This document shows positions 30,689-39,530 of a stretch of 40,054 nt of DNA, piece after piece. Source of the stretch: Nitrospinota bacterium (GTDB taxonomy: Bacteria > Nitrospirota > Nitrospiria > Nitrospirales > UBA8639). The notes below the pieces were generated by a model. The model worked only from the letters and a program-made list of their open reading frames with translations. It did not search any database and had not been told where the DNA came from. Positions within the stretch are counted from its first letter, which is position 1; each line of letters begins with the position of its first letter. The position numbers and the translations under genes are program-made. The DNA is taken from the NCBI GenBank assembly GCA_022572725.1, contig JACZVJ010000012.1:1-40054 (forward strand), given 5' to 3'.

Positions 30689-30741
30689 TGAGTTTCTCCC
30701 TTTTATGAAAATTGTGAAAATTGGGGTCAGGAAAACTGTGA

Positions 30742-31743
30742 TCAGGCATGAGTATTGACTTACTTCCTTAAGAGCGAATGCACCCGCCGCTCCAAGGTCC
30801 CATTCCGTCTTGTGGCATAGCTGGCATACAGGCGACTGATCATCGAAGCATCACGATGCAGGCGCCGTCCGAGGAGCTTCACGGTCATCCCACTCCACTC
30901 TCGGGCGGTATACACCAGCAGCGCTCGGGGTTCCACCCACTCGCGCTGGCGCCCCATTCGCACCAATTGATCCACGGAGACCCCCGTGGCGTGCGCGACC
31001 GCGGGGAGTAAGCGGGAGAAGGGCACCCGCGGGCCCTTCACCGTGACGTCGTGTTTCGCGTCTGTCTTGCGCTGAATCTCCTCCAGAAACCGGTCGTCTC
31101 CCAAAAAGCGCTGATCCACGGTCTCGTAATACTGGGCTTGGTGCCCGAGGGAAAGCCCCTCTCGTAAGAACTGTTGATAGGCCTGTCGCGCGACCCTCAC
31201 CTGGCGGTGAAACTGCTCGAGTACCACTGCCGTGTCGACACGCACCGGCGTTTGCTCGCCGAGATAGGCTCGATGGCTACTCCAGGGATACCGCCACGGG
31301 TTCTGCGGCTGACGGAGCCGGGCCGGGTTCAAATGGAGGTACCGCACCAGTTCCACGAGATAGGCGTCCCGATCACACACGATGGCCTGGTACCGCCCTT
31401 GGAAGAGATGGCCCGTCTTCCGATAGCGCCGATTATAATACTGGGTATAGGTGAACTGGAGCCGCTGCATGGTCCGCGACAGCGGGACGTCGCCGCTTTC
31501 CACCAGCAGATGGAGGTGATTGGCCAGCAAGACAAAGGCATAGCAAGTGAGGTGATCTTGCTCCTGGTAGTGGCGCAACCGGTCAAGATAGGCGGCATAA
31601 TCGGCCTTGTCATGAAAGAGGGTCGCCCGGCGGTTGCCTCGGGCGATCACGTGATAGCAGGCGCCAGCGAATTCCACCCGCGGTTTCCGTGCCATGCACA
31701 CAGCCTAGTCCGGCTCGACACATAAGTCAATACTCATGCCTGA
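30742..31743. mobile_element. RAYT-type element bounded by perfect 21-bp inverted repeats
   Basis: TCAGGCATGAGTATTGACTT plus A at 30742-30762 is repeated exactly in reverse complement at 31723-31743. The transposase gene fills the space between, and its stop codon (30760-30762) is part of the left arm. To the right, three near-copies of a GACCCCATCTTTG unit follow in tandem (31742-31787). The layout matches a self-contained REP/RAYT transposon. Confidence 0.8.
30760..31695 (-). CDS. REP-associated tyrosine transposase (Y1_Tnp/RAYT) with DnaA-like C-terminus
   Basis: A 311-residue transposase. The HUH metal motif is HLHLL in FVLLANHLHLLVE. The catalytic tyrosine region is FTYTQYYNRRYRKTGHLFQGRY. 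The start MARKPRVEFAGACYHVIARGN is the family opening. The C-terminal ~90 residues (LVRMGRQREWVEPRALLVYTA, GMTVKLLGRRLHRDASMIS) resemble a DnaA-type helix-turn-helix, common in this subgroup. RAYTs cut single-stranded REP hairpins. The ATG at 31695 is preferred over the GTG two codons upstream. The gene appears intact. Confidence 0.93.
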   Translation of the reverse strand: MARKPRVEFAGACYHVIARGNRRATLFHDKADYAAYLDRLRHYQEQDHLTCYAFVLLANHLHLLVESGDVPLSRTMQRLQFTYTQYYNRRYRKTGHLFQGRYQAIVCDRDAYLVELVRYLHLNPARLRQPQNPWRYPWSSHRAYLGEQTPVRVDTAVVLEQFHRQVRVARQAYQQFLREGLSLGHQAQYYETVDQRFLGDDRFLEEIQRKTDAKHDVTVKGPRVPFSRLLPAVAHATGVSVDQLVRMGRQREWVEPRALLVYTAREWSGMTVKLLGRRLHRDASMISRLYASYATRRNGTLERRVHSLLRK

Positions 31744-31966
31744 CCCTATCTTTGTGATGACCCCATCTTTGTGACCCCATCTTTGCCGTTTGGAAATCCT
31801 ATAAGCTTTTTCAACACTTAGCAAGAAATTCCCAACGCTAGACTCAAAGGGGTCTGAAGCCCTCTCGATTTGATATAGTTAGGCAATCACCAACAGGGTA
31901 CACGGTCCTTTCCCCCTCATCTGGGGTCGGAGTTATTTTTCTTCGATCAGCTTATGTAAGATTGTC

Positions 31967-33277
31967 ATGTCGAGAGCCTCGATTTTTTGGGTTTCTATTT
32001 TCCTGGTTTTAACTCTGTGCGGCTCTATCAATTATGCGGGGGAACTGGAGGGGTCCCCTCGCCTCCAGGCTCAACCAATTGCCATCCAGTCTCTCTCTGC
32101 TCTTATCCGGGCATATTTGGATTCTGGGGATGGGCAGGAAGCACAAGACATTCTGGCCAGGATTCTGACTCATCCAAAAGCCGATCTGGAAATGGTGAGC
32201 CGGGTCATTGGGGCTGGTCGCTCCTACGGAAATGAACCGGTCGGGCTTTACCCCAATGTCCCCGTGCAGGTTCGAGGAAAAACCCAGGGGTACGGGTTGT
32301 ATGTTCCTTCTTCCTACGACCCGGCCACGCCATATCCCCTGGTTGTCTGTCTTCACGGGGCAGGGTTTACGGGTGCGACCTATCTCGAACGCTGGCAACC
32401 GCGTCTTGGGGATTCGTACATTTTGGCTTGTCCGACATACTACCAAGGGGCATGGTGGACCCGGTTTGGGGAGGACCTGGTCCTGGCTACGATCCGGGCG
32501 GTTCGGGCGCGCTATCACATTGATCCCGATCGGATTTTGTTGACGGGGATGTCAAATGGGGGGATTGGAGCCTGGATCATTGGGATGCACCGTGCCCCGC
32601 TTTTTGCCGGGGTTGCCCCGATGGCCAGTGGGGTGGATGATGTCTTGTTTCCATTTTTGAAAAACCTGAGCCAAACTTCTGTTTATATTATCCATGGGGC
32701 ACGGGATCGGATCATGCCCGTTGATTTGAGCCGTCAAATTGTGAAGGAACTCGATACGCTTCAAGTGGACTACATTTATCGTGAGCATGACCATACTCAT
32801 CCCCATGCTGGTGGACATTTTTTCCCCCGCCCGGAACTTCCCGCCCTGGTGTCCTGGTTTGGGAAGCAGCAGCGGAATCCCTTTCCTCACACAGTCACCC
32901 TGGTACGGGATGCCAGCCATCTTACCGAATTCGGTTGGGTCAGGATTGATGCAACTGATCGAATCGCCATGTTCTCTGAGGCGCTGACGGATAACCGGGA
33001 TGAGTTTGTGAAGAATCGGATTTATGCTGAATTAGATGTGTCCATTGTCGGCCCCAACCGGATTGAAGTACGGACTACCCGGGTGCGGCGGTACACGATT
33101 TTCCTTAACCATCACTTGGTTGATCTCTCTCAGCCGGTGACCGTGGTGACGAACGATGTAATGAGCTTTCAGGGTGTTGTCAAACCTGATCTTGAAACCT
33201 TGCTTCGGGAGGCTCGCCGGCGACAAGATCCCCGGATGCTTTTTCCTATTCAATTGACGCTAGATGTTGAGAAGTGA
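31967..33277 (+). CDS. exported esterase of the PHB depolymerase/phospholipase type
   Basis: A 436-residue protein with a signal peptide (ASIFWVSIFLVLTLCGS, then INYAGE). The alpha/beta-hydrolase domain (residues ~105-310) has the oxyanion motif CLHGAGFTG, the nucleophile elbow LTGMSNGGIGAW, an Asp in IIHGARDRIMPVD and the His in HPHAGGHFFP. The C-terminal ~110 residues (HTVTLVRDASHLTEFGWVRI) form a beta-rich domain of unknown role. It is probably periplasmic or secreted and acts on an ester; the substrate cannot be named. The ATG at 31967 is the clear start. Confidence 0.82.
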   Translation: MSRASIFWVSIFLVLTLCGSINYAGELEGSPRLQAQPIAIQSLSALIRAYLDSGDGQEAQDILARILTHPKADLEMVSRVIGAGRSYGNEPVGLYPNVPVQVRGKTQGYGLYVPSSYDPATPYPLVVCLHGAGFTGATYLERWQPRLGDSYILACPTYYQGAWWTRFGEDLVLATIRAVRARYHIDPDRILLTGMSNGGIGAWIIGMHRAPLFAGVAPMASGVDDVLFPFLKNLSQTSVYIIHGARDRIMPVDLSRQIVKELDTLQVDYIYREHDHTHPHAGGHFFPRPELPALVSWFGKQQRNPFPHTVTLVRDASHLTEFGWVRIDATDRIAMFSEALTDNRDEFVKNRIYAELDVSIVGPNRIEVRTTRVRRYTIFLNHHLVDLSQPVTVVTNDVMSFQGVVKPDLETLLREARRRQDPRMLFPIQLTLDVEK

Positions 33278-33281
33278 ATGC

Positions 33282-33316
33282 TCTACCTCCCCTTGCCCCT
33301 CCTTACAAAGGAGGGG
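33282..33316. repeat. 35-bp direct repeat, copy 1
   Basis: Identical to 34232-34266. Contains the perfect hairpin CCCCTCCTTACAAAGGAGGGG (9-bp stem, 3-base loop). It lies just after the esterase stop. Confidence 0.85.
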
Positions 33317-33432
33317 AAATTAGGATGACTCACCAGGGTTAGCACAAGTGAAAGTTTTTTGATTTTTCATGTAGGAATCCCACTCTCGCTAAAGGAGCTT
33401 TGGTTGGATACCAACTTACAAAGGAGGAGATC

Positions 33433-33593
33433 TAACAGGCTGTTGAAAAAAGGCTGCGTGGGGGGATGCTCGAAAAGGGAGCGAGGAGCGGCTTGCTCCG
33501 CCTTCGAGGGGTCATAGGCTCCGTATTTAGGTCCGTCCTAATGGCGGGGGACCCTGGGTAAGCAGGGTGTTGGGGTTTTTCAATGCCCTGCTA
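33433..33593. repeat. MITE-like palindromic element
   Basis: The ends TAACAGGCTGTTGAAAAA (33433-33450) and TTTTTCAATGCCCTGCTA (33576-33593) are inverted repeats, matching at 14 of 18 positions. An internal GCGGCTTGCTCCGC hairpin adds structure. The ends resemble those of the element at 4708-4832, so the two probably belong to related families. Confidence 0.65.
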
Positions 33594-33868
33594 AGGCTGA
33601 CTTCACTCATGTGAAATACCATTTGAAAGATGTCTGAACCCCTCCTTAAAAATCTCGCACCTGGCGGTTGGAGTTCCTTTTGATATAAGCTTCGCCTGTT
33701 CTGCTTTGCCGGAATTCGTTCTTGCCCTCGATTTTACCAGCGGGGAGTTTCCCCTTCCCTAAAACGGATCTTCAGTTATCTGTGCAAATTGTTGTTTCTT
33801 GAATTCCCAATTTTCCTCCCCTTGGTAAGGGGAGGGTAGGTGGGGTAGAAGTGTCCAGGTGAATTTTC

Positions 33869-35686
33869 ATGCCTAGGGTCGTCCGGGGAATTCCACAGCA
33901 CCTGAAGCAAAAGAGACGGCTGAGATCAGAGGTGACCAAGGCTGAACTGTTGCTTTGGTCAAAGCTTCGGGGCTGCCAATTCCATTCTTTGAAATTTCGT
34001 CGGCAACATGGGATTGGATCCTATATCGTGGATTTTTATTGCCCGGACCGATTGTTGGTGATTGAAATCGATGGGGATATTCATGCACAAGGGAACCGAA
34101 AGAAAATGGATTGCCAAAGAGAGGCCTATTTGACCACTCTGGGTTTGAAGGCCATTCGTTACCCAAACGATGATGTGTTGAACAACCTTGATGGGGTCCT
34201 TCAAGATTTAGAAAACAAGATTTTTTCGGATTCTACCTCCCCTTGCCCCTCCTTACAAAGGAGGGGCAAAAGGAACCGACTCAAAAACATGTCGTTGAAT
34301 TCCTTCGTGACCCCAGAGGGCGGAGAAATGGGGCGGGCACAAGTGCTCCAGGCGCAGGCCTGCGGGCTTCTGCCGCACGTCGATATGAACCCTATTCTCC
34401 TGAAGCCGGAGGCGGACCAACGTTCTCAGATTATCGTTCAGGGAAAAATTTGGGGGACTCAAGACGCCAATGGGTACTTTGGGTGCAGGCCGGAGTTGTT
34501 TGGCTTTGTTCGAGACAGCTACGAGCGGTTAGCCAAAGACTACCAGGTTATTGTCATTGAGGGTGCGGGGAGTGCCGCGGAAGTGAATTTGCGGGACCGG
34601 GACTTGGTCAACTGGCCTGTGGTCGAGCTGGCGAATGCGGTGGTGGTCTTGGTTGCGGACATTGATCGGGGAGGGGTGTTTGCCCAGGTGATCGGGACGC
34701 TGGATCTTATCGACCCGAAAGAACGGCAAAGAGTTCTGGGAATCGTGGTGAACAAATTTCGTGGCGACCTGAATTTGTTTACTGATGGCGTGGCTTTTTT
34801 GGAGGAACGCACTGGGTTGCCGGTGCTCGGGGTACTGCCGTTTCTCCGTGACCTTCAATTGGATCAGGAGGACAGCGTTGGCGTGGATCGGTCTTCTCAG
34901 GCTCCGTTTGGTGATTCCACGGTGAATGTGGCGGTGGTGCTTTTGCCACACATGAGCAACTTTACCGATTTTAATGCTTTAGCGGCTGAAGAGGATGTGG
35001 TCTTGCGGTATGCGGCGACTCCGGCCGAGCTCAGTCGGGCGGATGTGGTTATCCTGCCAGGCAGTAAGACCACGATTGCCGATTTGGCGTATTTGAAGAA
35101 TGCTGGGTTCGGTGAGAGGTTGGTGGAATACGTGGATCAAGGGGGAGAACTGGTGGGGATCTGCGGTGGGTTTCAAATGTTGGGGCATGAAATTTCCGAC
35201 CCCCTCGGCGTGGAAATGGGGGGACTGGTTAAGGGTCTTGGTCTCTTAGAGGTGAAGACCGTTTTACATCGGGACAAAAAAACGGTTCAGGTTGTGGCCA
35301 CCCCGGCTCACTTGGGAAGTGCCGTTGGATTGCGCGTGAGAGGATACGAGATTCACATGGGGGAAACACGGCGATTGAAGGGGAAAGCCTGTTTCACAAT
35401 AATGCAAACATTTGGGCAGGAAAGGCCAGAGGAAGACCGAGAAGATGGGGCGTGGCGTGAGGACAAGTTGGTCTGGGGTACGTATATCCATGGCGTCTTT
35501 GACCAACCGGCCTTTCGACGGGCCTGGCTTAATCGGGTACGCGAACGGAAAGGGCTCCCCCAAATTGATCCTACGGTGTCCGAGGCGGTGACGGCCCGGC
35601 TTTGCTCCGCGCTGGACCGTTGGGCAGACCATGTCGAGCAACATGTACATATGGGAACAATTTTTTCAGCCCTAAATTTGAAATAG
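33869..35686 (+). CDS. DUF559 endonuclease-like domain fused to CobQ lacking its P-loop
   Basis: One 605-codon frame with two parts. Residues 1-~120 are a complete DUF559 domain (Vsr-like nuclease fold) with RRQHGIGSYIVDFYCPDRLLVIEIDGDIH; Asp55, Glu66 and Asp68 are candidate metal ligands. Residues ~121-139 are encoded by a 35-bp palindromic repeat. From residue 140 (KNMSLNSFVTPEGGEMGRAQ) the sequence is adenosylcobyric acid synthase (CobQ/CbiP), which amidates the corrin ring with glutamine and ATP; its glutaminase half has Cys432 (GICGGFQMLG) and His541 (YIHGVFDQP). Normal CobQ has about 40 more N-terminal residues with the ATP-binding P-loop and a KAQ just before NMSLNS; these are absent. 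An ATG at 34289 (residue 141) could start CobQ alone, with a weak ribosome site. Whether CobQ works without the loop is uncertain. Confidence 0.88.
   Translation: MPRVVRGIPQHLKQKRRLRSEVTKAELLLWSKLRGCQFHSLKFRRQHGIGSYIVDFYCPDRLLVIEIDGDIHAQGNRKKMDCQREAYLTTLGLKAIRYPNDDVLNNLDGVLQDLENKIFSDSTSPCPSLQRRGKRNRLKNMSLNSFVTPEGGEMGRAQVLQAQACGLLPHVDMNPILLKPEADQRSQIIVQGKIWGTQDANGYFGCRPELFGFVRDSYERLAKDYQVIVIEGAGSAAEVNLRDRDLVNWPVVELANAVVVLVADIDRGGVFAQVIGTLDLIDPKERQRVLGIVVNKFRGDLNLFTDGVAFLEERTGLPVLGVLPFLRDLQLDQEDSVGVDRSSQAPFGDSTVNVAVVLLPHMSNFTDFNALAAEEDVVLRYAATPAELSRADVVILPGSKTTIADLAYLKNAGFGERLVEYVDQGGELVGICGGFQMLGHEISDPLGVEMGGLVKGLGLLEVKTVLHRDKKTVQVVATPAHLGSAVGLRVRGYEIHMGETRRLKGKACFTIMQTFGQERPEEDREDGAWREDKLVWGTYIHGVFDQPAFRRAWLNRVRERKGLPQIDPTVSEAVTARLCSALDRWADHVEQHVHMGTIFSALNLK
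34232..34266. repeat. 35-bp direct repeat, copy 2, inside the fusion gene
   Basis: Identical to 33282-33316 and read in frame, giving the linker PCPSLQRRG between the DUF559 and CobQ parts. It marks the junction of the two domains. Confidence 0.85.
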
Positions 35687-39125: not shown

Positions 39126-39265
39126 GGAGTAAGAAAAGGGGAGTGGGCCTAGAAGTGAAAGACCAGGAGGGAAGCAAAGAGTGTGGCTATCTTCTCTCTT
39201 AATTAGCCTATAGCCACAGGTTTTGGGTAAATCTTCAACAACAAGGAGGGAGAAAAGGAAATAAC

Positions 39266-39490
39266 CCGGTAGTGACGGGGAAGATGGTGCGAAACCATCA
39301 CGGTGCCGCCACTGTAAGCGGGGAGTGACTCTGCACAAAGGCCACTGGTTCAGCCAGTGAGGAGTAAGGAGTAAAAAGTTAGGAGTGGAGGGGAAGCCTC
39401 CAACCTAACTAAGAACTCGCTATCCCTCACCCAAGATCTGGGAAGGCGCAGGGAAACGACGATCCGCAAGTCAGGAGACCCAACTGCCGT
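39266..39490 (+). ncRNA. cobalamin riboswitch upstream of the BtuB-like receptor
   Basis: Blocks in order: GGTAGTGACGGGGAAGATGG, GGTGCCGCCACTGTAAGCGGGG, GGCCACTGG, GGGAAGGCGCAGGG and AGTCAGGAGACCC. The variable arm between GCCACTGG and GGGAAGGC is a long stem (GTGAGG with CCTCAC, GTTAG with CTAAC, TGGAGG with CCTCCA). It ends about 40 bases before the receptor start, which has its own GGGAGG ribosome site. Confidence 0.92.
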
Positions 39491-39530
39491 GTCTTTCAAC
39501 CTCACCCTTCGAACCAAAGGGAGGTGTATC

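Follow-up and report, generated by a model that had tools for sequence, protein, structure and literature searches.

A DUF559 domain joined in frame to CobQ

We conclude, with a probability of roughly 75%, that the DUF559 gene at the cobQ locus of this genome is the gene of a palindrome-bounded unit of a mobile type, and that this unit landed at cobQ and became fused to it, most likely leaving an inactive CobQ. The window analyzed here, 40,054 nucleotides in length, is the whole of contig C158 in a draft assembly of 221 contigs. Its open reading frame 33869-35686 (+) is a single open frame of 605 amino acids, in which a full DUF559 (PF04480) domain with the conserved acidic/histidine quartet occupies residues 13 to 116 (Pfam; E = 3.6e-28, 98 bits, profile positions 5 to 106 of 109). 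A CobQ match begins at residue 139 and extends from profile position 38 to the end (NCBIfam; PRK00784, 550 bits), and the C-terminal type-1 glutamine amidotransferase domain GATase_3, a membership feature, is present at residues 353 to 548 (Pfam; E = 6e-54). The frame and both profile matches agree with what had been read from the sequence alone, namely, that a complete DUF559 is joined in frame to CobQ at its NMSLNS motif. The junction reads SLQRRGKRNRLK followed directly by NMSLNS, which is encoded from 34286, and the frame between DUF559 and CobQ runs through a perfect palindrome, CCCCTCCTTACAAAGGAGGGG, at 34246-34266. The sequence-only reading had given 33869-35686 as its coordinates; the meaningful unit instead begins at approximately 33811 with the 5' inverted repeat. 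The features of the locus are as follows:

31967-33277, + strand: esterase-like gene; a homologue directly precedes the intact cobQ in relatives of genus g3, which serve as the empty-site reference
33282-33319, + strand: solo 3' terminal repeat, 5 bp past the esterase stop and 97% identical to 34232-34269
33429-33599, no strand assigned: copy of a dispersed repeat of ~165 bp, unrelated to the unit
33811-33850, + strand: 5' terminal inverted repeat, TTTTCCTCCCCTTGGTAAGGGGAGGGTAGGTGGGGTAGAA; the same end is found in L178, L187, L191, L192, L193, and L197
33869-34225, + strand: DUF559 coding part (Vsr-like nuclease fold), with D55, E66, D68, and H72 intact
34231-34271, + strand: 3' terminal inverted repeat, TTCTACCTCCCCTTGCCCCTCCTTACAAAGGAGGGGCAAAA, with its palindrome at 34246-34266 and the in-frame translation STSPCPSLQRRGK
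34286-35686, + strand: remainder of cobQ from NMSLNS to the stop, lacking the first ~40 codons (P-loop), as defined by profiles, P-loop searches, and conserved columns

The DUF559 unit spans ~460 bp (33811-34271) and has imperfect terminal inverted repeats of ~40 bp, each of which holds one palindrome; that of the 5' end, CCTCCCCTTGGTAAGGGGAGG (CCTCCCC..GGGGAGG), occupies 33815-33835, upstream of DUF559. With the inner flank included, the 5' palindrome gives the terminal repeat TTTTCCTCCCCTTNGTAAGGGGAGGnnAGGNGGGGTAGA and the 3' palindrome gives TCTACCTCCCCTnnCCCCTCCTTACAAAGGAGGGGAA, and the two form an imperfect inverted pair. These ends also surround the nearest DUF559 relatives in other contexts, among them L187, which comes from another family, and this agreement indicates that the limits of the unit lie at approximately 33811 and 34271. 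The DUF559 profile matches 3HRL, a solved endonuclease-like protein (E = 1e-36), and 3R3P, described as "Mobile intron protein" (E = 5e-6). The dispersed ~165-bp repeat (AACAGGCTGTTGAAAAA..TTTTTCAATGCCCTGC) occurs at 14 or more further places in the source genome and almost nowhere in relatives.

CobQ belongs to a BioD-like P-loop family, whose members require the ATP-binding loop. This N-terminal P-loop (GTxSDVGKS) of the BioD-like domain is absent from the open reading frame, the window, and the genome: the P-loop segment (40 residues in relatives) gave no match in any frame of the window and nothing above noise against the whole genome (best match 13 bits, E = 0.55). This bears out the earlier statement that the ~40 loop-bearing residues are gone from cobQ; in full they would include GTGSDVGKS. 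The intact second CobQ that had been proposed as a check was sought in the genome and none was found, nor did any other CobQ or CbiA there rise above noise. By regular expression, the P-loop motif stands directly before NMSLNS in 94 of 96 full-length relatives, L074 and L120 being unmatched. The nearest intact CobQ proteins, all from Nitrospirales, have 60 to 65% identity over most of their length, in a comparison set without a same-genus genome. What is left of CobQ keeps 82 of 83 near-invariant columns (at least 97% conserved among the 96 relatives), the lost one being the junction residue; this undecayed state points either to a recent event or to continuing selection on the remainder.

An assembly artifact, in which a misjoin at the palindrome conceals a true cobQ that is intact or otherwise interrupted, seems unlikely. 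The assembly is a draft of 221 contigs, near-identical 38-bp repeats lie at 33282 and 34232, and a further DUF559 gene of the assembly lies at the edge of contig C210, all of which would favor a misjoin. However, usual reads are longer than a 38-bp repeat, the join leaves the frame open, no 5' part of cobQ is found elsewhere in the genome, and even a wrong join would need the palindrome to adjoin cobQ at codon ~41. The same architecture is also seen at independent loci of relatives, including genomes assembled into one or a few contigs (G017, G018, and G020), which further argues against an artifact.

Paired palindromes around DUF559 genes

DUF559 was found in 29 of 60 related genomes, with many copies lying within long frames, and this survey, in which 43 DUF559 loci were read, rules out the unit in the window as a one-off. 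Hairpins with scores of at least 22 are present on both sides of 19 of 33 DUF559 genes, compared to 1 of 110 control frames of the same loci, and at a threshold of 20 the comparison of DUF559 with the other frames of these loci gives a Fisher p of 3e-12. Palindromes also lie on both sides of DUF559 genes in Geomonas, Geobacter, and other non-Nitrospirota genomes, so that several other phyla are represented; clear pairs are absent at three Firmicutes-type DUF559 genes (L227, L228, and L242). Among 35 pooled units, the palindrome upstream of a DUF559 gene resembles the one downstream of it more than permuted pairings do (17.7 versus 10.1, z = 11), most pairs are inverted copies (25 versus 8), and palindrome type tracks the DUF559 tree (8 changes versus 21.8 when shuffled, with 0 of 200 shuffles as low), with near-copies contributing to both the pairing and the tree statistics and sequences drawn mostly from draft or metagenome assemblies. 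The clade of the window's unit has near-constant ends across contexts and in another family (L187). A cassette that is delimited and recurs at other loci lends good support to the sequence-only suggestion that a mobile DUF559 cassette broke cobQ.

Near this clade in the tree we also observed the DUF559 gene of L229 (Deltaproteobacterium GWB2_55_19), whose palindromes have swapped arms as in the window's unit (CCTCCCC..GGGGAGG upstream, CCCCTCC..GGAGGGG downstream).

Solo and miniature copies

Exact copies of the 21-mer palindrome number 102 in G002, 73 in G034, 38 in G014, 21 in G021, and 4 in the source genome, and a reversed-pattern control gave 0 in every genome. Miniatures that lack DUF559 consist of both terminal repeats 30 to 110 bp apart; they occur on contigs C47 and C185 of the source genome and also just upstream of the intact cobQ in G014 and G034. 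At this position, an empty site is seen in other g3 genomes (esterase stop, short spacer, and cobQ start, with nothing inserted), and alignment to it makes the insertion visible, with no clear target-site duplication. Terminal inverted repeats and dispersed copies, both features of MITEs and transposons, are therefore present. All 8 of the 8 family-f1 genomes with the window's DUF559 clade have at least 4 palindrome copies (Fisher p = 8e-5, uncorrected for relatedness). Six genomes hold 9 to 28 copies without this clade, and palindromes without it are found, for example, in G024, G026, G028, and G032, indicating that copies can outlast, or arise without, a resident gene.

These solo palindromes, present in many copies, raise the possibility that they are ordinary REPs moved by a Y1 transposase (RAYT) and merely flank DUF559, which would then be a passenger. 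The window does contain a Y1 (RAYT-like) transposase gene, at 30760-31701, with a DnaA_C-like helix-turn-helix end. Nevertheless, the palindrome-richest g3 genomes (G002, G034, G014, and G021, all with clade-N DUF559) have no Y1_Tnp (PF01797) match, and the other members of their genus have at most a weak one; palindrome copy number is negatively correlated with the count of Y1 transposases, and the inverted repeats that flank the window's Y1 gene (AGTCAATACTCATGCCTGAC, 30738-31744) differ from the ends of the unit. For these reasons ordinary RAYT mobilization is not a good explanation, and we rejected RAYT as the source of the palindromes on the basis of its distribution and its different end repeats. 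In REP/RAYT systems a GTAG tetranucleotide abuts the palindrome foot; the 5' repeat of the unit holds a GTAG ~10 nt away from its palindrome. No Y1 domain lies within the DUF559 unit, and DUF559 is the only thing common to several unrelated palindrome types, so that a passenger role for this gene is improbable.

Fusions to host genes

Of the 43 units that have a 3' palindrome, 28 reach their stop codon only past it, in host DNA; with a stop often missing before the unit's 3' end, read-through fusions recur. The partners are agmatine deiminase, AAG glycosylase, HsdS, HsdM, and CobQ. The DUF559-agmatine deiminase fusion is one old insertion common to genera g1, g4, and g9 at a conserved locus of the family, with DUF559 upstream in L123 (G000:C210), L165, L166, L176, L179, L180, L184, L185, L189, L216, and L226. 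The deiminase partner is complete, the palindrome in the linker is decaying, and 9 of 13 copies no longer have the D-E-D-H quartet, while all other aligned DUF559 domains, including that of the CobQ fusion, retain it. DUF559 is likewise in frame with methylpurine-DNA glycosylase (AAG), as one insertion within g9, in two genomes of that genus (L188 and L193), and a unit lies in frame between the two HsdS recognition domains in L164, L169, and L173, where the open reading frame begins with a nucleotidyltransferase-like domain. A single site in HsdM is found in several states, all of them in frame (L177, L171, L168, L164, and L173): it is empty in G018, holds one palindrome in G021 and several in G032 and G024, and in G034 carries a whole unit, as palindromes, DUF559, and palindromes again, after which the gene continues normally. 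An intein was rejected, since Pfam found no Hint domain in six fused frames or in the CobQ fusion.

That the product at cobQ is a working fusion, either with CobQ activity or with its DUF559 and glutaminase parts doing something new, appears quite unlikely. A frame kept over 460 codons and the retention of nearly all near-invariant CobQ columns (82 of 83) would be consistent with function, as would the persistence of the DUF559-agmatine deiminase fusion across three genera of the family. The latter, however, has a complete partner and has lost the quartet in most cases (9 of 13), and its persistence needs no joint function; at cobQ, the ATP-binding loop that 94 of 96 relatives possess is absent. 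With the nucleotide-binding loop gone, cobyric acid synthesis by the fusion is very unlikely, and from its sequence the protein is most likely without CobQ activity. The altered mechanism once proposed for a working fusion thus finds no support as far as a CobQ is concerned.

Cobalamin context

CbiC is absent in 25 of 25 family-f1 genomes searched (G000 to G024, the source genome included), suggesting that ring synthesis is probably absent and that the corrin ring probably comes from import in any case. Neither CobS nor CbiA turned up in the source genome, and the contig ends where relatives carry late genes. The sequence-only reading had proposed that a broken cobQ would make the cell dependent on the adjoining B12 importers; with a contig that ends before the late B12 genes, this dependence is no more than plausible. 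A second cobalamin riboswitch lies at 39254-39501, near the contig end, and the genes under its control are outside the contig.

Proposed mechanism and implications

We propose that one copy of the unit landed at the esterase-cobQ boundary and that the insertion, or a deletion tied to it, would have cost cobQ its first ~40 codons along with the short spacer. With no stop before the end of the 3' repeat, ribosomes translating DUF559 would then cross the palindrome and continue into cobQ. The Vsr-like nuclease may move or copy the unit by acting on its hairpin ends; in the simplest model, it would nick the hairpins that the paired ends form, with repair then copying or moving the unit. Alternatively, the unit could home into solo palindromes already in place, and this too would produce the series of states seen in HsdM. 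Mobility is suggested by the structure of the unit, its recurrence, the miniatures, the in-frame insertions, and the empty and filled HsdM sites, and the DUF559 nuclease may drive the movement. Weighing against this account, no target-site duplication was recognized, a simple insertion does not account for the loss of 40 codons, and the conservation of the CobQ remainder also fits a protein that is still used. The genomes that carry the palindromes without this DUF559 clade, the three Firmicutes-type genes without clear pairs, and the draft or metagenome nature of most sequences count against it as well. The neighborhood of the lost cobQ start is rich in repeats, with the solo terminal repeat at 33282 and the 165-bp repeat at 33429-33599.

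A broader view, which we hold at about even odds, is that DUF559 nucleases drive a widespread and undescribed class of small mobile elements by recognizing paired palindromic ends. In that case, and with the same balance of confidence, both the unit and its DUF559-less miniatures would be moved or copied, and ends that leave the frame open would allow translational fusions in host genes or at their starts. Annotation usually gives DUF559 genes, which are found widely, no more than the label "endonuclease domain-containing protein". Should they prove to be the mobile genes of units with palindromic ends, palindromic repeats lacking a transposase would have a candidate driver. Repeats of the CGTC type have been reported without association to transposase genes (PMC3733652). 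Odd annotated fusions, such as those with CobQ, agmatine deiminase, AAG, HsdS, and HsdM, would then be explained by insertion and not by a functional joining of domains, and the units would constitute a second in-frame insertion system, comparable with the Rickettsia palindromic elements.

Comparison with known systems

Relative to cobyric acid synthase, the fusion has everything from NMSLNS on, with the near-invariant columns kept, but carries DUF559 in place of the nucleotide-binding P-loop segment. A limited literature search recovered no paper that describes DUF559 genes as units bounded by palindromes, and several known systems share some of their features. The REP/RAYT systems (REPINs and BIMEs; PMC2817692, PMC3116915) likewise have many short palindromes, inverted pairs, and a driver gene with its own palindromes, whereas the DUF559 unit encodes a Vsr-like PD-(D/E)XK nuclease rather than a Y1 HUH transposase, its palindromes lie inside reading frames, and its copies are most numerous where Y1_Tnp is absent. 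Rickettsia palindromic elements (PMC10969869) also place palindromic DNA in frame in protein-coding genes; they are, however, ~150 bp long with a short conserved peptide, whereas DUF559 units carry a full nuclease gene and coexist with DUF559-less forms. MITEs resemble the miniatures, which have two terminal inverted repeats, no protein gene, and intergenic copies with empty sites, but the related autonomous form here seems to code for DUF559 and not for a transposase, and target duplication was not recognized. Vsr-like homing endonucleases (I-Bth0305I, PDB 3R3P) and free-standing DUF559 proteins such as Caulobacter VsrA, reported as a Vsr-like endonuclease (PMC12907096), are homologous nucleases by profile, and by analogy a selfish use of the nuclease is plausible for DUF559 units; unlike the homing endonucleases, the unit lies outside any intron or intein, is bounded by palindromes, and occurs at several loci. 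The units would be palindrome-bounded small mobile DNA, which is of a known kind, with an unexpected nuclease gene.
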